Positions 5,070 to 39,261 of a DNA stretch of 64,000 nt are shown in pieces. Made by a program: the position numbers and the translations under genes. Source of the DNA: an uncultured Bacteroidales bacterium (lineage in GTDB: Bacteria; Bacteroidota; Bacteroidia; Bacteroidales; CAIXZF01). The notes under the pieces are model-generated. The model made no database searches and had not been told where the DNA came from. It was given only the letters and a program-made list of their open reading frames with translations. The stretch spans positions 1 to 64,000 of the forward strand of contig CAIXZF010000109.1 of the NCBI GenBank assembly GCA_903923925.1, in the 5' to 3' direction. Every line of letters begins with the position of its first letter. Within the stretch, counting starts at the first letter, position 1.

Positions 5070-5930
5070 TTATGCTACAAAGTGAAGCACAGCACTATAG
5101 CTCTGATATCCTGTTGATTCTACAAATCCGTTTGGTCCGAAATATTCGCCACCTTTTACATTTGTTGCAAAAGCAGCACGAATGCCAGGTAAAGCTGAAT
5201 CAAGAGAATCGGGGCCTGAGAACATTTTATATATAGGTTTAAACAACCGCCACGACCATTGATTGCGGAGTCTGCGCTCAAGGTTTCGGTTCGATGGACC
5301 AGGATAGGCTGCAACAGCCACACAACTTACTTTTTTCATCTCGAATAACTTCTGCAATTCGTAAGTAAACAATAAATTGGTCCATTTGAAACTTCCAATT
5401 TTGTGTTTTTCGGCATTGCTATGACCTTTTGGACTCATAAGCCTGCTGAAATCTTTTTTATTCAGCTTGTGCTCACCAAGACTAAGGTTAATTACCCTTG
5501 AATTTTGAGTGACCGCAAGTTTATTCAGCAATAAGGTTGTTAATACGAAATGCCCGGCATGGTCGCTGTTGATATGCTTGCCAAAAAGTTTAGCCGATTC
5601 ACCGGCGGGGATGGTATGGCTGTCGCCAATATTCATCAAAACATCCAGGCGTTCATATTTCTCGTTAAAAGCTTTGCCAAACTGCTGAATTGATTTGGGG
5701 TCTCTGAGATCAAGAGCCATAACTTCAATTATTGCAGCAGGATGTAGTTTTAACATTTCGGTTTTAATCATTTCACCCATCTGCAGGTCCTTACAGGCCA
5801 GAATAGTCTCTCCACCATTCTTGGCAAAAGCTTTAACAGTTTCATACCCAAGGGAGCTGTCGCCTTCGGTAACAATCATAATTTTTCCGCTTTGACTAGG
5901 GATGTGGGAGATCGTCCAATTATTTTTCAT
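5070..5930 (-). CDS. Short-chain dehydrogenase/reductase-fold protein with degenerate active site
   Basis: A 286-residue SDR of the retinol-dehydrogenase-like type, recognisable from its frame (LGYETVKAFAKNG, LDVLMNIGD, NLLFTYELQKLF, AAYPGPSNRNL, YFGPNGFVESTGY). The cofactor and catalytic motifs are damaged. The TGxxxGxG loop reads TEGDSSLG (residues 21-28), so two of its three glycines are lost. NNAG reads MNIG. In the YxxxK motif the tyrosine position is Ile178 while Lys182 is kept. The rest of the protein is full length and has no frameshift, which argues for a retained non-catalytic role over simple decay. It is convergent with the efflux operon. Start is the ATG at 5930; function unknown. 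Confidence 0.8.
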   Translation of the reverse strand: MKNNWTISHIPSQSGKIMIVTEGDSSLGYETVKAFAKNGGETILACKDLQMGEMIKTEMLKLHPAAIIEVMALDLRDPKSIQQFGKAFNEKYERLDVLMNIGDSHTIPAGESAKLFGKHINSDHAGHFVLTTLLLNKLAVTQNSRVINLSLGEHKLNKKDFSRLMSPKGHSNAEKHKIGSFKWTNLLFTYELQKLFEMKKVSCVAVAAYPGPSNRNLERRLRNQWSWRLFKPIYKMFSGPDSLDSALPGIRAAFATNVKGGEYFGPNGFVESTGYQSYSAVLHFVA

Positions 5931-8083: not shown

Positions 8084-10231
8084 ATGTCTTCAAAAAAATC
8101 AAATGGAAAAATTATTCCGCTTCCTTTATCTGCTGAAAAGTATATTAAAACCAAAGCCCGCGAACTCCCTATTTTTCAATGCATTATAAACGAAGACTGG
8201 AAAGAGTCACGGATTGCTTCCATACATATTTCACGAAAGCAGCCTTCAGGAAAAATTGTTTTGGCTTCTTATCTTATCGATTTGAAATGCCTTGGTTTAA
8301 AAGATACTTTTTACAACTTTAACCTTGAAAGTGATGAACTTGATAAGATGTTAGACAAGTTCAATCAATCCTTGGTAATGATCAATTGTCCTTATGTTCT
8401 TGCTCATAATATCATTTACGGAGCTATTGCCTTTGCCGAAGACATTGGTCTGATACCGCATAAAGACTGGTTGGTAACCCAGTATGCGCTTGAGGATGAT
8501 ACTGAGGATATTGAATTGATTGACATTGAATTTGGTGGTCCGGACGGGAAGCCTTTTTTAGTAATTACACCTCATTTTTCTTATGTTGATGCAATTGCCC
8601 GGCTTGACCGGAAACTCGGAAAGGGCAACTATGAAATTATCAACGACCCAATTATTCCCGAAAAATTTAATGATGATATCGAAAATCTTGTTTATGATGA
8701 CGAAGATTATGGCGATGATGACGATTTTTTTGGCATAGAGGATTCCTCAAAAAACCGTTTAGTAAATTATGCTTCCCTTCTGATTGATAAAATTTATGAA
8801 ATTCATTGTAGATATAAGCATGTAACAGACCCTTTATCTGACATCAGTTCTATTAATCTTTCAGACTATAACCTTATTGAAGATGAGGATTTTGAACTTG
8901 GCAAATTTGTAACTGAAAATGAAATAAAGAATCTGGAAGTCGTTTATAGATTGTCTGAAAGTAAACCAGAAAAATCGCTTAAGAAACTGGTTGAACTTGT
9001 AAAAAATAATCCAGATAATATCACTTACAGGAATCATCTGTTTATTATATATAAGGCCACAGAATTGGATGAAAATGCAGATCAGTTGCTAATAGAAACA
9101 TACGAGAAATTTCCAACTCATTTGTTTACCCGAACGAATTATGCACATTTTCTGCTAAATAAAAATAGGATTGATGAGTTTCCTGCTGTTTTCAATGGAG
9201 GTGTTTATGATCTGAACGCGCTTTATCCGGAAAAGAAAAGTTTTTGCTACAGTGAGTTTTGTGGTTTCTACAATGTAATTGCCCGTTTCTTTGCCGTTTG
9301 TGGTCAAATTAAAAATGCCGAATTTTTGACTGACATGCTTTATGATCTTCCCGAAACCTATGAGGATGATAATATCGAAAGCACAATAAACCTTATTTCG
9401 AATAAAAAAAACATTGCCATTTTTGGAGACATGCTGAAAGATTCTGAAGATAAAATCCTGGTTAAAAATCCTGTATTTTTAAACGAAGTTTTTATAAACC
9501 TATATTTTTGGGATACTACTATTGAAAAGAGCGTGCTCACTGCGATTCTTGCGCTTCCGTTCGATGAATTCATGGCCGATATTTATGAAGGATTACATTA
9601 TAGTTACCTTGATTACATCAATAAAGTAAAAATCTCCGACGATGCAGTTGCTTCTGAATTTATTATGCATGCCTATTTCCTGATGGGAGAAATAAACCGA
9701 CCCGAAATACTGGAAGAACTTTTATTTATTCTCAGCTCTGACTATGATCTGCTGTTTACATTTTTTGGTGATAGTATTTTTGACAAAGGATGGATGCCTG
9801 TTTACCGACATGGAAAGGAACATCTTGACAGACTGCTTGAATTTTGCACAAATCCAGAATTTGGAGAAGGTAAATCTATTGTAACCTATGCCATGCTTCA
9901 GATTGCAATTCAGGATCCCGCCTATTACGAAGAAGTAAAAAAATGTTTTATATCTATTGCTGATTATTATATTAAAAATCCTTATGAAGCAGATGATCAG
10001 CTTGATTTTATTTCAGACTTTGTTGGTGTCATGGCTAAGTTAGGTGATACGGATTTCCTTCCTGTCATTAAAACACTTTACGAAAAAGATTTTGTGGATG
10101 AAAGCTATTCCGGAACTTACATGGAAATAAGTGCAAAGATCAGGAGCAAAAGCTCATTAAAATTGCTTGAAAAATTGCAGAGCATTTTCGAAATTTATGA
10201 TGAAATAAACACAGAATGGTCGACATCTTAA
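8084..10231 (+). CDS. Hypothetical protein, 715 residues, helical-repeat C-terminal part
   Basis: No catalytic motif is visible. The N-terminal 200 residues are mixed alpha/beta, followed by a highly acidic stretch (YDDEDYGDDDDFF, about residues 206-218). From about residue 290 it becomes all-helical with TPR-like units such as NHLFIIYKATELDENADQLL and NYAHFLLNKNRIDEF. The last 200 residues resemble the DUF1186 style of helical repeat (tentative, from memory). A damaged paralogue lies at 29,848-30,600. The protein lacks signal peptide and membrane segments, so it is probably cytoplasmic. It has its own promoter and stands alone. ATG start is supported by conservation of the same start region in the broken paralogue. 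Confidence 0.7.
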   Translation: MSSKKSNGKIIPLPLSAEKYIKTKARELPIFQCIINEDWKESRIASIHISRKQPSGKIVLASYLIDLKCLGLKDTFYNFNLESDELDKMLDKFNQSLVMINCPYVLAHNIIYGAIAFAEDIGLIPHKDWLVTQYALEDDTEDIELIDIEFGGPDGKPFLVITPHFSYVDAIARLDRKLGKGNYEIINDPIIPEKFNDDIENLVYDDEDYGDDDDFFGIEDSSKNRLVNYASLLIDKIYEIHCRYKHVTDPLSDISSINLSDYNLIEDEDFELGKFVTENEIKNLEVVYRLSESKPEKSLKKLVELVKNNPDNITYRNHLFIIYKATELDENADQLLIETYEKFPTHLFTRTNYAHFLLNKNRIDEFPAVFNGGVYDLNALYPEKKSFCYSEFCGFYNVIARFFAVCGQIKNAEFLTDMLYDLPETYEDDNIESTINLISNKKNIAIFGDMLKDSEDKILVKNPVFLNEVFINLYFWDTTIEKSVLTAILALPFDEFMADIYEGLHYSYLDYINKVKISDDAVASEFIMHAYFLMGEINRPEILEELLFILSSDYDLLFTFFGDSIFDKGWMPVYRHGKEHLDRLLEFCTNPEFGEGKSIVTYAMLQIAIQDPAYYEEVKKCFISIADYYIKNPYEADDQLDFISDFVGVMAKLGDTDFLPVIKTLYEKDFVDESYSGTYMEISAKIRSKSSLKLLEKLQSIFEIYDEINTEWSTS

Positions 10232-11844: not shown

Positions 11845-12930
11845 ATGTCAACATTAAAACTATTTTCCCCTGCCAGGCTGGGAAATATTGACCTCAAGAA
11901 TCATATCGTGATGGCCCCTATGACAAGAAACAGAGCTACTTCCGATAATGTTCCCGGCCAAATACAGGCTATATATTACACACAACGGTCCTCAGCAGGA
12001 TTGATTATCACAGAAGGAACATCACCTTCGCCAAACGGTGTTGGATACCCCAGGATTCCGGGTATTTATACAAAGGAGCAGATAGAAGGCTGGAAGCTTA
12101 CAACTGATGCAGTTCATAAAGCCGGCGGGAAGATTTTTCTTCAGATTATGCACAGCGGCAGAGTAAGCAGCATTTTAAATCTGCCGGAAGGTGCAGAAGT
12201 TTTAGCTCCCTCTGCAACATCACCTGAAGGTGATATTTACACGGATAAAGGAGGTATGCAGCCTCATACTACTCCTAAGGAAATGACTTCTGATGATATT
12301 AAAAAAGCAATTGAAGAATATACGCTTGCCTCAGTTTACGCTATTGAAGCAGGTTTCGACGGAGTTGAACTTCATGCTGCAAACGGTTATCTGCTTGAAC
12401 AATTCATATCACCCGACACGAACAGAAGAACAGACGAATATGGAGGATCAATTATAAACAGATCTTCATTCGTTCTTGCTGTTGTGAAATCTGTTATTGA
12501 AGCAATTGGCACCAACAGGACAGCTATCCGCTTATCACCCTATGGAGTTAATGCCGGCATGACCCTATACCCTGAGCTCGATGAAACCTATGCTTACCTG
12601 GTTGAGGAATTGAATAAACTTGGAATTGTATACCTTCACATGGTTGATCATTCAGCAATGGGTGCTCCTGAAGTTCCAAAACAGCTGAAGCAAAAGATAC
12701 GCGAACTGTTTAAAAACACGCTAATTCAATGCGGAGGATATAACAGGGAAAGTGCAGAAGAAGATCTTCAAAGTGGTTTTGCTGATCTGGTAGCATTTGG
12801 CCGTCCGTTTATTTCAAACCCTGATTTTGTTGCAAGAATGGAAGAAGGAGCAGAATTAAATGCTCCCGATTTCAATACCTTCTATACTCCCGGAGAAACA
12901 GGGTATATAGACTATACTGCTCTGAGTTAA
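11845..12930 (+). CDS. Alkene reductase, Old Yellow Enzyme family (NADH:flavin oxidoreductase)
   Basis: A 361-residue FMN-dependent TIM-barrel enzyme. Diagnostic motifs are visible in order: LFSPARLGNIDLKNHIVMAPMTRNRA at the start, LQIMHSGRVS, FDGVELHAANGYLLEQFISPDTNRRTDEYGGSIINR (active-site and FMN region), IRLSPYG, and FGRPFISNPDF at the end. Length and motifs fit the NemA/OYE class that reduces activated C=C bonds or nitroesters using NAD(P)H. It is a single gene with its own upstream region, which holds an inverted repeat. The physiological substrate is not deducible. Confidence 0.93.
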   Translation: MSTLKLFSPARLGNIDLKNHIVMAPMTRNRATSDNVPGQIQAIYYTQRSSAGLIITEGTSPSPNGVGYPRIPGIYTKEQIEGWKLTTDAVHKAGGKIFLQIMHSGRVSSILNLPEGAEVLAPSATSPEGDIYTDKGGMQPHTTPKEMTSDDIKKAIEEYTLASVYAIEAGFDGVELHAANGYLLEQFISPDTNRRTDEYGGSIINRSSFVLAVVKSVIEAIGTNRTAIRLSPYGVNAGMTLYPELDETYAYLVEELNKLGIVYLHMVDHSAMGAPEVPKQLKQKIRELFKNTLIQCGGYNRESAEEDLQSGFADLVAFGRPFISNPDFVARMEEGAELNAPDFNTFYTPGETGYIDYTALS

Positions 12931-29847: not shown

Positions 29848-30600
29848 TAGCCTCAAAAAAATCCAAAGGAAACATCCTTTATCTACCCTTATCACCCGAA
29901 AAATATATAAAATCAAAGGCCCGTAGCCTACCATAAAGGGAGTGCAATCTAAAAATGATACGGATGAAAAATACACAAGATTGTTAACGATGGTCGATCG
30001 CTTTCCCGAAAACCGGATTTTTCAAAATCATCTGTCATTAGTTTGCAAGAAGCTTGGTAAAGATGATGAGGCAAACTCTCTTATTATATCAGCATATAAA
30101 CAATTTCCTGATTATTTGTTCGCGTGCTGTAACTATGGTCATTTGTTGCTTCTCGAAAATCGGTCTGAAGAATTCTCCTCTGTATTTAATGGAGGAATTT
30201 TCGATTTAAAGAAATTATATCCATCGAGAAACGATTTTCATGTCCTCGAATTCAGCACATTTTATTGTTTAATGATTCAATATTTTGCGAGTACCGGTGA
30301 ACTTAAAAATGCCGATCACCTTATGATATTGCTGGAAAAACTACCAACTGCATATGAGGATAGCAATATTCTGCTCACCCGGCGTTTATTGTCGGGTATA
30401 AAATTTATCAGAATATTTGGCGAGGGCGAGGAGAACCTGAAAGAATCACTTAAAAATTCACTTCCAAAAATAAAATCAAAGATGATCAGGAGATTACTGG
30501 AAGAATAACTTTCTGTATCTCCCGAAGTTATAAAAGAACTTCTTCGGTTGTCGCCGAGTGGACTTCAACTTCCGGATTATTATGAAGATGCTAATGATTG
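29848..30600 (+). pseudogene. Deleted paralogue of the 715-residue protein at 8084
   Basis: Bases 29848-29940 match the first 30 codons of the intact gene (SKK(S)KG...LPLSPEKYIKSKARSLP compared with ...LPLSAEKYIKTKARELP) and then reach a stop. The next 560 bases (frame 29942-30508) match residues about 290-480 of the intact protein (NHLSLVCKKLGKDDEANSL, FNGGIFDLKKLYPSR, YEDSNI). The 250 residues between are deleted, and the reading frame is broken by stops. The tail runs into an unrelated transposase scrap near 30590. A 188-codon ORF with a GTG start survives but is unlikely to make a functional protein. Confidence 0.7.
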
Positions 30601-32237: not shown

Positions 32238-32564
32238 ATGGGTATAACTCTAACACGGTGTACACAAATATTAAACCGTCCGGAGTCTATGAGTATTTCC
32301 GAATTACAGCGCTTAGTTGATACTGTTGATGCTAAAGATGTAACAGTAGCCCGGTTGATTCTTGATTATCATTGTGCCTGGGATCGGGTTTCGCTTACTG
32401 TTCTGAATAACTATTTTGATATCAACGGCATTGGCATAATCCTTTTTCTTGGCTTTGAGGCTACCATGCAGGCCGATCATAGTGAAGTCTTAGATAAGGA
32501 TAATGATATTTCCAGAACAATGGAGATAAAAGAAGCAGAAACTACTATGGAGGTTACGGAATAA
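32238..32564 (+). pseudogene. Truncated copy of the 34384 unknown protein
   Basis: The frame matches residues 23-130 of the 130-residue protein at 34384 (RPESMSISELQRLVD, DYHCAWDRVSLTVLNNYFDI), at roughly 90 percent identity by eye. The first 22 residues are missing and replaced by the hicB remnant. The remaining ATG (MGITLTRCTQILN) may allow translation of a shortened product of 108 residues. No known domain; the N-terminus is HTH-like by feel only. Confidence 0.55.
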
Positions 32565-32578
32565 TGAACGGGACAATG

Positions 32579-32845
32579 TCAGGGAAACACCTTATAGATA
32601 TCCTTTCGGGGCAAGGCTCGTATGAATTCAATAGTACTGCCTTTAATAATAACACCAAGTCGGTATTTTCCTACACGAATTCGGTAACAGGAAATTCCTC
32701 CGGAGAGCTTTTTAATGTTCTTGATTTCGGAAATCCTGTTTGTTTCTCCCGTGAATTTTATACATTCCAATATTGCCGGTATTTCGGCATTATCAGAAAT
32801 TTTAGAAATGTCCTTTACAAAGGATTTGCGAATAATTATTTGCAT
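32579..32845 (-). CDS. RelE/ParE-family type II toxin (RelE-like)
   Basis: An 88-residue protein with the RelE/ParE fold signatures: MQIIIRKSFVKDISKIS at the start, followed by a helical pair, then the central strand GGISCYRIRVGKYRLGVIIK and the terminal RALPRKDIYKVFP, where Arg and Lys residues act in mRNA cleavage by RelE-type toxins. It overlaps the antitoxin by 10 bases (toxin start 32845, antitoxin end 32836), the usual antitoxin-first order. It reads opposite to the neighbouring 32238 ORF. Sits in the leftmost unit. Confidence 0.82.
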   Translation of the reverse strand: MQIIIRKSFVKDISKISDNAEIPAILECIKFTGETNRISEIKNIKKLSGGISCYRIRVGKYRLGVIIKGSTIEFIRALPRKDIYKVFP

Positions 32846-33105
32846 CGTGCAGCCAGATCGTTAAGGAACTTCTTTGTGTCTACAATTTCTGAGTTACTGC
32901 CTTCGGCAATAGCTGCCAACATAAATGCATCTTCAGAAAGATCGTTATCCTTAGCTTTTCCAATAGCCGGTTGCTCCACTTTATTACTTGCAGCTGGCTT
33001 TTTCTTTATGGCAATAGCTTCAAAATTAACATTTGATTTCCGTGCCATTGCAAGTACTTTCCTCATTTCTTCAGCTGTTTCGGTTTTGATGATAACCTGT
33101 GTCAT
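32836..33105 (-). CDS. Antitoxin of the RelE-like toxin
   Basis: Eighty-nine residues from ATG 33105 (MTQVIIKTETAEEMRKVLAMARKSNVNFEA). The first 40 residues are almost identical to the antitoxin at 35072-35488, whereas the C-terminal toxin-binding part differs (SEDAFMLAAIAEGSNSEIVDTKKFLNDLAARCK). The conserved N-terminal part is probably the dimer/DNA-binding part, the variable end binds the toxin. A longer start at 33135 adds ten residues and is less likely. A -7 element TATCTTTG lies at 33122-33129 on the minus strand. Confidence 0.78.
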   Translation of the reverse strand: MTQVIIKTETAEEMRKVLAMARKSNVNFEAIAIKKKPAASNKVEQPAIGKAKDNDLSEDAFMLAAIAEGSNSEIVDTKKFLNDLAARCK

Positions 33106-33172
33106 TGCCAGTAATTTTTTACAAAGATAATTCAAAATAGAACATTTAAGATTTTCAATTTAACCAGCTACA

Positions 33173-34383: not shown

Positions 34384-34776
34384 ATGGAATTAAGGAACTA
34401 TCTGAAGACAGTATTAACAGCAAATCAGTTTGAGAAGCTTGCTGAGTATATGGGACAAACACAAACCCTTTGTACACAAATGTTAAACCGTCCGGAGTCT
34501 ATGAGTATTTCCGAATTACAGCGCTTAGTTGATATTGTTGATGCTAAAGATGTAACAGTAGCCCGGTTGATTCTTGATTATCATTGTGCCTGGGATCGGG
34601 TTTCGCTTACTGTTCTGAATAACTATTTTGATATCAAAGGCATTGGCCTGATTCTTTTTCTTGGCTGCCAGGCTGCCATGCAGGCCGTTCATAGTGAGGT
34701 CTTAAATAAGGATAATGATATTTCCAGAACAATGGAGATAAAAGAAGCAGAAACTACTATGGAGGTTACGGAATAA
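34384..34776 (+). CDS. Hypothetical cassette protein, 130 residues
   Basis: No family recognised. The first 90 residues are helical (LKTVLTANQFEKLAEYMGQT, SISELQRLVDIVDAKDVTVARLILDYH) with an HTH-like feel similar to small phage regulators, followed by a hydrophobic patch (GLILFLGCQAAMQ) and an acidic tail (KEAETTMEVTE). A shortened copy is at 32238. In both places the ORF is followed convergently by a toxin gene (9 to 15 bases), so it marks the same chassis with different toxins. A cytosolic regulator is the simplest guess. Confidence 0.5.
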   Translation: MELRNYLKTVLTANQFEKLAEYMGQTQTLCTQMLNRPESMSISELQRLVDIVDAKDVTVARLILDYHCAWDRVSLTVLNNYFDIKGIGLILFLGCQAAMQAVHSEVLNKDNDISRTMEIKEAETTMEVTE

Positions 34777-34784
34777 TGGGACTG

Positions 34785-35075
34785 CTATTTCAGCATGGAG
34801 CTATGAACAACATTCACAACCACGACATTATTTTTGTCGATCTTGTACAGAAAAATCCAGTCTCTGTAAGGAGCACAGTGATATCCTTTTTTTGCCAATA
34901 TATGTCGTTTACACACAGGGTATTTCAAAGGGAAACGTCCAAGACTGCCAATATAAGTATACAATTCGTCAACAAATTTTGCAGCTGTAAGCGGAAACCC
35001 AATTCTGTCGAGATAGATGCCAATAGCCAGGATAGAATTACGAGCCGAAGGCATTATGATAATTTTGTAAATCAT
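34785..35075 (-). CDS. RelE/ParE-family type II toxin (ParE-like)
   Basis: Ninety-six residues with the ParE-type layout: IIIMPSARNSILAIGIYLD (first helix pair), FVDELYTYIGSLGRFPLKYPVCKRHILAKKGYHCAPYRDWIFLYKID (the central sheet) and VVNVVHSSMLK at the end. ParE members inhibit DNA gyrase, while RelE members cut mRNA; which applies here cannot be told. The toxin start overlaps the antitoxin stop by four bases (ATGA type), giving tight coupling. Confidence 0.82.
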   Translation of the reverse strand: MIYKIIIMPSARNSILAIGIYLDRIGFPLTAAKFVDELYTYIGSLGRFPLKYPVCKRHILAKKGYHCAPYRDWIFLYKIDKNNVVVVNVVHSSMLK

Positions 35076-35488
35076 TTTTCTGCCAGGTATTTCTTCAGAG
35101 CCCTTTTAACAGATTTTAATGTTGTATCAATACTAGCTCCCCTACCAGATTCAGATTCGGCAATGAGTGAAACAAGTTCAGCATCAGTAGCCGGTTTACC
35201 AGGTAATATCGTTATACTGGTTCTAAGCTCCTGCATAAATTTCTTTTCATCAACATATTGCCCCGTCCGTCCCTGGTCCATTGCTAAAGCTAATTTCTGG
35301 TCCAGGACTTCATCTGAAGAAAGTGAAGAAACTTTAACTTTTCCAATAGCGGGTTGTGCAGCTTTTTTAGTTACATCCGGCTTTTTCTTTATGGTAACAG
35401 CTTCAAAATTAACATTTGATTTCCGTGCCATTGCAAGCACTTTCCTCATTTCTTCAGCTGTTTCGGTTTTGATGATAACCTGTGTCAT
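35072..35488 (-). CDS. Antitoxin of the ParE-like toxin, longer chimeric form
   Basis: A 138-residue protein. Residues 1-40 match the antitoxin at 32836 (TETAEEMRKVLAMARKSNVNFEAV). The middle (LDQKLALAMDQGRTGQYVDEKKFMQELR) looks like one toxin-binding tail, and the end (DAELVSLIAESESGRGASIDTTLKSVKRALKKYL) like a second, so it is about 50 residues longer than its relative. Promoter -7 element TATCTTTG at 35504-35511 on the minus strand. Whether the two tails come from a recombination between antitoxins is inference. Confidence 0.75.
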   Translation of the reverse strand: MTQVIIKTETAEEMRKVLAMARKSNVNFEAVTIKKKPDVTKKAAQPAIGKVKVSSLSSDEVLDQKLALAMDQGRTGQYVDEKKFMQELRTSITILPGKPATDAELVSLIAESESGRGASIDTTLKSVKRALKKYLAEK

Positions 35489-35554
35489 TGCCAGTATTTT
35501 TTACAAAGATAATTCAAAATAGAACATTTAAGATTTTCAATTTAGCCAACTACA

Positions 35555-36192: not shown

Positions 36193-36828
36193 TTACGGAT
36201 TAAAATCGATTTCTTTTCGAGGCAAGAAGAACCCTTTTATACAATTCATATTGCGAATACAAAGTTGAATGTGGCTTTTTGATTGTATTCCAGCACCAGG
36301 GAAAGCAGGTCCCCCTTCTGTAAATACTCCTCTTGCAGAATCAAAATGAATGAAATTACTAAACCCTTTAGTGGAAATATCTACTTCTATTTGTTCTTTG
36401 ATTTTCTGATGTGTATATTCAATTACAGCACAATCAAGTTCTCGCAAAATCTTATCCTTAAACAAATCTGTTTTAATATCCCTATTCTCTGGCATAGTCA
36501 TCCCAAGTATTTTATACGACTCTTCCATTAAATTGTAGTACTCACTTACTAAATTGATAAATTTTGAATCGATCAAATCCAGACAATAATCCAGACTTAG
36601 AACAGCACCAATAACTGCTGCGGATTTTATTTCCCCTCTTTTTTCCTTGTCTTTTGCCCACTGTAAGGCTCTGTCATAATTATTCTCCCAAAAATAGATT
36701 CCATGACCAAGCCAATCGTATGGTTTTTCGCTCTTGTGAATTATTTGGGGTCTTACAAGCAGTGAATTTTGGATTTCTTTATCACATCCGTGAAAACCAA
36801 CAATTAGATTACTTCGATTGTAATACAC
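36193..36828 (-). CDS. Putative ADP-ribosyltransferase-like toxin
   Basis: A 211-residue protein with YHG-like start (LIVGFHGCDKEIQNSL) and KSEKPYDWLGHGIYFWENNYDRALQWAKDK, patterns common to bacterial proteins of the PARP/ART-like fold that act as toxins (for example DUF3990-like). The end (IQLCIRNMNCIKGFFLPRK) is also shared by those proteins as I remember. The family is poorly characterised, so ADP-ribosylation is a guess. Its neighbour upstream on the same strand (36809-37000) overlaps it by 20 bases, which supports a toxin-antitoxin pair. Confidence 0.55.
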   Translation of the reverse strand: MYYNRSNLIVGFHGCDKEIQNSLLVRPQIIHKSEKPYDWLGHGIYFWENNYDRALQWAKDKEKRGEIKSAAVIGAVLSLDYCLDLIDSKFINLVSEYYNLMEESYKILGMTMPENRDIKTDLFKDKILRELDCAVIEYTHQKIKEQIEVDISTKGFSNFIHFDSARGVFTEGGPAFPGAGIQSKSHIQLCIRNMNCIKGFFLPRKEIDFNP

Positions 36829-37708: not shown

Positions 37709-38755
37709 TTGAAAGACATTGTAGCAAAACGTATAAAAAGCGCAAGATTGATGGCTGGACTATCGTTGCGTGAACTATCTGAAGAGATTGGAAACGCTGT
37801 GAGTTATAATGCCATAGCTAAGTATGAAAAGGCTGAAATGATGCCTGATAGCAAGGTGTTGCTGGTTTTATCCAAAGCACTTCAAGTTAAGCCTGACTAC
37901 TTTTTTAGACCGTACTCTTTAGAAATACAAGATATCGCCTTTAGGAAGAGGAAAAAGCTTGGTGTTAAGAAGGTGAATTCTTTGAAAGAAGAGATTACTG
38001 ATTCTGTATCCCGCTACATTGAGGTAGAGCAGTTGTTGAACATTGAGACTGCCTTCCAGAATCCTATTCGTGATTTATTAATTACTGATAGTGAAGATGT
38101 TGAGTTGGCAGTTAACCAGTTAATAGCTGCTTGGAAGATCGGAATTAACGCTATACCAAACGTTATTGATATTTTAGAAGATAAAGAAATAAAGGTCGTT
38201 GAGATTGATGCCCCTGTTGAATTTGATGGAATGTCTGGATGGGCTGACAAGCAAATACCGATCATCGTAATCAACAAGAATTACGAAAATGAAAGGAAGC
38301 GATTTACTGCTTTGCATGAACTGGGTCATATTTTGTTAAATTTCAGCCCCGAACTTTCTGAAAAGGAACAAGAAAAGCTATGCCACAGGTTTGCTGGTTC
38401 TTTACTTATTCCCAAAGAGACTTTTTGCTCAGAACTTGGGGTCAAGAGAAATACTATCAGCAGGGCAGAACTTATAAACCTGAAAGAAACCTATGGTTTA
38501 TCTATTCAGGCAATAATGGCAAGGGCAAGGGATCTTGAAGTGATTTCACCTTACTATTATCAACAGTTCTGCATCCAAATTTCAGGGAACAGGGTAGAAG
38601 AAAATTTGGGTCGTTTTATTTGTAAGGAGCGGTCTAATAGGTTCAGGAATTTAGTATTCCGTGCAGCCGCCGAAGAAATTATATCAATGAGCAAGGCTGC
38701 CAATCTATGCAATCAGAAGCTAGCATCATTCAGGGACGAATTTGTTGCCATATGA
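37709..38755 (+). CDS. XRE HTH - ImmA/IrrE metallopeptidase protein (antitoxin-type)
   Basis: A 348-residue protein with a TTG start. Residues 1-70 are a Cro/C1-type HTH (AKRIKSARLMAGLSLRELSE...VLLVLSKALQVKPDYFF). The C-terminal half holds the COG2856 zinc metallopeptidase motif HELGHILLNF (HExxH) and LCHRFAGSLLIPKETF, as in ImmA/IrrE. Such fusions pair with PIN or other toxins as antitoxin-like regulators and cleave a partner or repressor. The next gene, a PIN-domain protein, starts in the last four bases (ATGA overlap), so the two are one unit. The promoter is consensus. Confidence 0.85.
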   Translation: MKDIVAKRIKSARLMAGLSLRELSEEIGNAVSYNAIAKYEKAEMMPDSKVLLVLSKALQVKPDYFFRPYSLEIQDIAFRKRKKLGVKKVNSLKEEITDSVSRYIEVEQLLNIETAFQNPIRDLLITDSEDVELAVNQLIAAWKIGINAIPNVIDILEDKEIKVVEIDAPVEFDGMSGWADKQIPIIVINKNYENERKRFTALHELGHILLNFSPELSEKEQEKLCHRFAGSLLIPKETFCSELGVKRNTISRAELINLKETYGLSIQAIMARARDLEVISPYYYQQFCIQISGNRVEENLGRFICKERSNRFRNLVFRAAAEEIISMSKAANLCNQKLASFRDEFVAI

Positions 38756-39261
38756 AAGTAGTTGTTAATGATGCCAATATCCTAATTGACCTTATTAAGT
38801 TGCAACTACTTCCACATTTTTTCGCACTTGCCTGGGAATTTCATACGACTTCACTTGTACTGGACGAACTGTATGATAACCAACAGGAGGCTTATGCTGC
38901 TTATATTGATAATAATCGGTTAACTATTGATGATCTTGATGGCGATGAGCTTTCTGTTTTATTGGATTTCAGGATGGAGAAACCGCAGCTATCAGAACAA
39001 GATTGCTCGGCGATTCTTTTATCACTGAAGACTGATGGGTTGCTAATTAGTAGTGATAAAAATCTAAGAGAGTTCGCAAAAGCTAAAGGATTGGAAGTTC
39101 ATGGTCATCTATGGCTCTTTGACCAAATGGTGGATGCAAATACAATAACACCATTACGTGCGGCTGAAAAACTGGAAGAACTGAAACACTTTGTCAATCC
39201 CAGATTACATTTACCCGATGCAGAATACCAAAAAAGAATTAATCTTTGGAAAAGGCTTTAG
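38752..39261 (+). CDS. PIN-domain protein (VapC-like ribonuclease)
   Basis: A 169-residue protein starting at ATG 38752, overlapping the previous stop. PIN-domain motifs are visible: KVVVNDANILIDL (first acidic residues), LVLDELYDNQ and LSEQDCSAILLSLKTDGLLISSDKNLREFAK, the last containing the conserved acidic DKxL motif. PIN proteins are Mg-dependent ribonucleases and act as toxins in many pairs. The partner would be the ImmA/IrrE-type protein just upstream. A longer in-frame start at 38707 would overlap that gene by 49 bases and is less likely. Confidence 0.8.
   Translation: MKVVVNDANILIDLIKLQLLPHFFALAWEFHTTSLVLDELYDNQQEAYAAYIDNNRLTIDDLDGDELSVLLDFRMEKPQLSEQDCSAILLSLKTDGLLISSDKNLREFAKAKGLEVHGHLWLFDQMVDANTITPLRAAEKLEELKHFVNPRLHLPDAEYQKRINLWKRL

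Follow-up and report, generated by a model that had tools for sequence, protein, structure and literature searches.

A putative SDR pseudoenzyme retained under selection in two genera of one Bacteroidales family

We propose that the gene at 5070..5930, on the minus strand of the 64,000-nucleotide stretch of DNA from an uncultured Bacteroidales bacterium analysed here (the window), encodes an SDR pseudoenzyme that has a single origin, is kept by selection and would act in binding or as a scaffold through its C-terminal lobe, a reading that we consider fairly probable. The catalytic and cofactor motifs of this protein (hereafter pseudo-SDR) are lost both in the host copy and in its orthologue from a sister genus, the two copies share one origin and have open frames, selection has acted after the loss, and conservation has shifted to the C-terminal third. 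The protein has probably been turned to a non-enzymatic purpose. An earlier note, made from the letters of the window, had suggested a pseudoenzyme with a kept fold, and its main point is supported by the shared losses, the open frames and purifying selection; the role in binding or regulating that it raised may apply.

The reading frame runs from an ATG at 5930 to a stop at 5072-5070 and specifies 286 residues without an internal stop or frameshift, so that the description of the protein as full length was correct. What had been observed at this locus holds with two corrections, namely the minus strand and the register of the NNAG motif discussed below. The ORF, Pfam, NCBIfam and an AlphaFold2 (AF2) model together describe a complete SDR fold that lacks the catalytic tetrad. 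Pfam assigns adh_short (E 1.4e-10, 41.4 bits, cut-off 26.6), and the best NCBIfam match is PRK06197.1 (NF004846, E 7.1e-60), although its 202.8 bits lie below the curated cut-off of 268 and pseudo-SDR therefore falls outside that subfamily by curated score. The nearest solved structure, 3rd5, is the top match in sequence (8.2e-19) as well as in Foldseek (1.4e-14). The AF2 model, built from eight sequences, has a pTM of 0.77 and finds SDR structures across the PDB, with a best Z of 25.7 by VIA-align (rmsd 2.6, 219 aligned) and with Z >= 8 for 1000/1000 of the top Foldseek chains. On the basis of its Rossmann-type alpha/beta fold and sequence homology pseudo-SDR belongs to the SDR superfamily. 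It has its fold, its length, the N-terminal NWT..IPS and GGEYFGP in common with the PRK06197 or retinol-dehydrogenase-like classical SDRs, but differs from them in its score below the cut-off, in the loss of the tetrad and cofactor motifs, and in a short tail that replaces the C-terminal helix.

When aligned with 65 proteins, comprising one orthologue (from genome G001) and 64 more distant homologues, pseudo-SDR presents D123-L151-I178-K182 where the tetrad Asn-Ser-Tyr-Lys is expected. The homologues are nearly uniform at these sites, with S151, Y178 and K182 each present in 64/64 and N123 in 62/64 (the other two have Cys). The YxxxK motif of classical SDRs reads IGSFK in pseudo-SDR (residues 178-182, 5385..5399) and IGGFR in the orthologue; Ile178 stands at the Tyr site and Lys182 is present, as had been noticed from the sequence. 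The losses of the active-site Asn (D123, 5562..5564) and of the catalytic Ser (L151, within S150-L151 at 5478..5483), both common to the two orthologues, had gone unremarked. The assignments of D123/L151 and 178/182 are supported by their spacing, which equals that of the Mentha SDRs, where Ser stands 28 residues after Asn and Lys 4 residues after Tyr/Glu (PMC4988501).

The cofactor motifs are degenerate in the same proteins. The dinucleotide loop TGxxxGxG is indeed TEGDSSLG (T21-G28, 5847..5870) and has lost its first and middle glycines; E22, where 64/64 homologues have Gly, is a change in the host genome only, and S26, where G26 is found in 64/64, occurs in both orthologues, the G001 loop reading TGGDSSLG. 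The loss of NNAG is likewise real, but the match given for it, MNIG, was placed one residue too early, the true counterpart being N100-I101-G102-D103 (5622..5633), with Met99 aligned to the hydrophobic residue that precedes NNAG. N101, A102 and G103 each occur in 64/64 homologues, and both orthologues have Ile at 101, that of G001 showing NI followed by a deletion. Position 209, His in 62/64 homologues, is Tyr, and position 215, Thr in 57/64, is Arg. The canonical residues that pseudo-SDR keeps are T21, G28, D74 (Glu in the orthologue), N100 and K182.

Missing canonical residues do not prove that every activity is lost, and the main rival to the pseudoenzyme reading is a re-purposed enzyme, in which the SDR fold would catalyse another reaction with other residues, as in isopiperitenone reductase, which has Glu for Tyr. 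Such a conversion is documented, a single Tyr/Glu difference toggling between ketoreduction and ene-reduction in an SDR (PMC4988501). An enzyme would also show strong purifying selection, and the derived D123, K159, R163, Y209 and R215 of both orthologues are in keeping with one. The Mentha isopiperitenone reductase resembles pseudo-SDR in the replacement of its catalytic Tyr, but it is an active ene-reductase that keeps Asn, Ser, Lys and the cofactor motifs, TGxxxGhG among them (PMC4988501), whereas here Asn, Ser, Tyr and the cofactor motifs are gone, as is Lys in one orthologue. With 20 residues next to the pocket missing from the G001 protein, and with the best-conserved part distant from the catalytic motifs, we consider a re-purposed enzyme unlikely.

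The host family is represented by 2 genomes from two genera, the host (G000) and G001. The G001 orthologue has 266 residues and is 61% identical by MAFFT, or 57% over 286 columns by BLAST. Both proteins carry S26, I101, D123, L151, I178, F181, W183, Y209 and R215, as well as the further derived residues K159 and R163, and Tyr, Lys and Ser are intact in 64/64 of the other relatives, all of which are more distant and lie outside the two-member clade. The G001 protein retains G22, has Arg at Lys182, and lacks, through an in-frame deletion next to the pocket, the 20 residues between strand beta4 and the long helix (residues 102-121, 5568..5627 in the host gene). The earlier note had asked whether orthologues bear the same substitutions, and the single available orthologue (2/2 family genomes) has these losses and more; as the G001 protein shares them, the early decay of one mutated copy among intact orthologues, which that note had named as the outcome against it, is not what is found. 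No close intact paralogue is present in G000, where the next best is at 27%, and none was found when sought in G001; a heteromer formed with such a paralogue was rejected on this ground.

A tree of 66 proteins groups the two orthologues in one clade (support 100/100), whose nearest relative, L048, belongs to a different family of the same order (97/81). Changes per column amount to 1.13 on the stem of the clade and to 0.40 and 0.34 on its tips, that is, rapid change early and constraint afterwards. Between the orthologues dN is 0.27-0.30, and dS is saturated at 2.5 (LWL85) or 5.7 (ML) and not computable by NG86; identity at codon positions 1, 2 and 3 is 72, 80 and 35%, and 23/72 fourfold sites are identical. 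With synonymous change saturated and dN this low, selection has maintained the protein after the catalytic loss, as judged from its two members. After simulated neutral drift to the same divergence, protein identity stood at 8-16% and the sequences held, on average, 11-12 stops, and none of the neutral runs (2 x 500) gave identity above 23% or fewer than 4 stops. These results bear on the possibility that the gene is a pseudogene in decay or an assembly artefact of one genome, to which the extra glycine-motif loss of the host copy (E22), absent from the orthologue, might be ascribed. The frames are open in two independent genomes, in genes with GC3 of 0.40 and 0.67, dN is far below dS, and the 61% identity of the orthologues exceeds the 49% of a housekeeping neighbour that we take to be pantothenate kinase, though it is less than the 72% of the RND pump adjoining pseudo-SDR, both compared in the same two genomes. 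Decay or assembly error was thus rejected on the evidence of the orthologue and dN/dS, and is very improbable.

The predicted structure was discarded as proof of a lost pocket. The Rossmann core (residues 11-100) is modelled with high confidence and residues 101-120, 151-180 and 268-286 with low confidence, and because an intact control made with the same eight sequences is similarly low around 101-120 and 151-180, the model cannot inform on the pocket. Nor does it bear on the tail. The confident core and the retained T21, G28, N100 and D74 (or Glu) are consistent with a ligand or redox sensor, which would bind a dinucleotide or hydrophobic metabolite without turnover and report its occupancy to a partner, as NmrA-like regulators do. 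The cofactor site of pseudo-SDR is, however, hit by E22 (in the host copy), S26, I101, the missing A-G of NNAG and R215, and is affected again by the Lys-to-Arg change of the G001 orthologue, which makes a sensor quite improbable.

Under the pseudoenzyme reading that we favour, the protein would work through its C-terminal lobe. The orthologues are 53% identical over residues 1-100, 55% over 101-200 (the deletion left out) and 76% over the remainder. The excess of C-terminal identity (201-270) over the mean of the other parts is +0.217 for this pair. Among 205 pairs of intact homologues that have diverged to a similar degree, and that are not independent of one another, the excess averages -0.07 and never exceeds 0.143. 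The high identity of the C-terminal third could also stem from folding constraints. Within the lobe lies a derived basic, Trp-rich segment (residues 212-237, 5220..5297), modelled by AF2 with helices at 215-221 and 225-237, whose net charge is +6 in pseudo-SDR and +7 in the orthologue, against a mean of 2.0 (sd 1.5) in the 64 relatives, 2/64 of which reach +6. The pI of the whole protein is ordinary (9.5, and 9.8 in the orthologue, with a mean of 9.1 in the relatives). The lobe is followed by a replacement tail (residues 268-286, 5073..5129; pLDDT < 50) that stands in both orthologues where intact relatives have a terminal helix of the LWEVSEELTG type, and that ends in AVLHFVA, all seven residues of which are identical in the two. 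An old frameshift hiding the lost helix was ruled out, as none of the 3 reverse frames beyond the stop encodes one.

The family appears to be narrow. A profile search of 393 genomes of the order recovered 2/393, both of them the known members (547 bits for the orthologue, 252 for the next best), and searches of the class and of the phylum, with 395 genomes each in samples that overlap with one another and with that of the order, gave no further member (next best 240 and 189 bits). No relative was found in the viral contigs searched, the 248 records from a plasmid search are all below 60% identity, and a scan of genome contigs with patterns of pseudo-SDR only returned 7 loci, each of which retains Tyr and Lys. 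As only two members are known, conservation refers here to two genera within a single family.

No shared operon, neighbourhood or partner was found between the host and G001 loci. The host gene is flanked by what we take to be an RND pump and a nucleotidyltransferase-like gene, and the orthologue lies by a presumed methylcrotonyl-type carboxylase cluster and a presumed response regulator. The closest G001 relative of the pump is on a different contig from the orthologue; the nucleotidyltransferase-like neighbour has no match in G001, an empty result that carries no weight. With no operon or neighbour in common, the pseudo-SDR gene is probably transcribed alone.

Other features of the window were observed in passing. 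Two oxidoreductase genes of the contig, at 11845-12930 of the window and at 3619-4761 of L042, are presumably old-yellow-enzyme-like. On the plus strand, 8084-10231 (715 aa) and 29942-30508 (a 188-aa ORF) have a VFNGG..DL..LYP stretch in common, apparently as complete and partial copies of the same gene; 32564-33130 and 34776-35522, also on the plus strand, have a near-identical C-terminal stretch and are probably read antisense to a repeated gene. At 37709-39261 (plus strand) an HTH protein with a HELGH metallopeptidase-like motif overlaps a 184-aa PIN-like ORF, and the two look like a toxin-antitoxin-type pair. A 211-aa ORF on the minus strand (36193-36828; GFHGCDKEIQ...HGIYFWEN) resembles, in our estimation, DUF3990/ADP-ribosyltransferase-like proteins.

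In the model that we propose, pseudo-SDR would have arisen a single time, in the ancestor of the host family or earlier, from an oxidoreductase resembling PRK06197 (the retinol-dehydrogenase type). A burst of change would have removed most of the tetrad together with a large part of the dinucleotide site, with purifying selection thereafter, leaving a protein that may no longer perform SDR chemistry or bind NAD(P)(H) normally. It would then act as a binding, scaffold or regulatory protein through its C-terminal lobe (212-237, rich in Trp and Arg, and the tail 268-286), whose target may be a partner protein, an acidic surface or the face of a membrane. More specifically, and tentatively, pseudo-SDR may represent a new, lineage-restricted family of cofactor-free scaffolds or adaptors whose site is filled by bulky residues (L151, I178, F181, W183, Y209) and in which selection has shifted to a newly evolved basic, Trp-rich lobe that, with its fixed hydrophobic tail, docks onto a specific partner or membrane in the host family. 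Non-catalytic regulators with an SDR fold exist in the NmrA and MAT2B types, which are extended or atypical SDRs of separate lineages. Human SDR5C1 (HSD17B10) of mitochondrial RNase P sets a precedent for an SDR fold that is required as a partner protein: neither its dehydrogenase activity nor an intact NAD site is needed there, and the TRMT10C-SDR5C1 complex stays active with a tetrad mutant or a cofactor-site mutant of SDR5C1 (PMC3526285). SDR5C1 differs in being still an active enzyme with a known partner.

SDRs make up one of the largest families of enzymes, in which a replaced catalytic Tyr is reportedly rare, the Mentha study counting isopiperitenone reductase and only four additional enzymes among more than 500 aligned SDRs (PMC4988501). 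A search of an open-access library found no case of a bacterial SDR pseudoenzyme. Pseudo-SDR represents a narrow new lineage of a known kind, a pseudoenzyme of known fold, in which the loss is documented in two steps with intact relatives for comparison. Pfam-type matches would label such a protein an oxidoreductase, which matters for annotation. Finally, the SDR fold would here have been recruited for a non-catalytic role: almost all of the tetrad is gone from this bacterial SDR, which selection still maintains.
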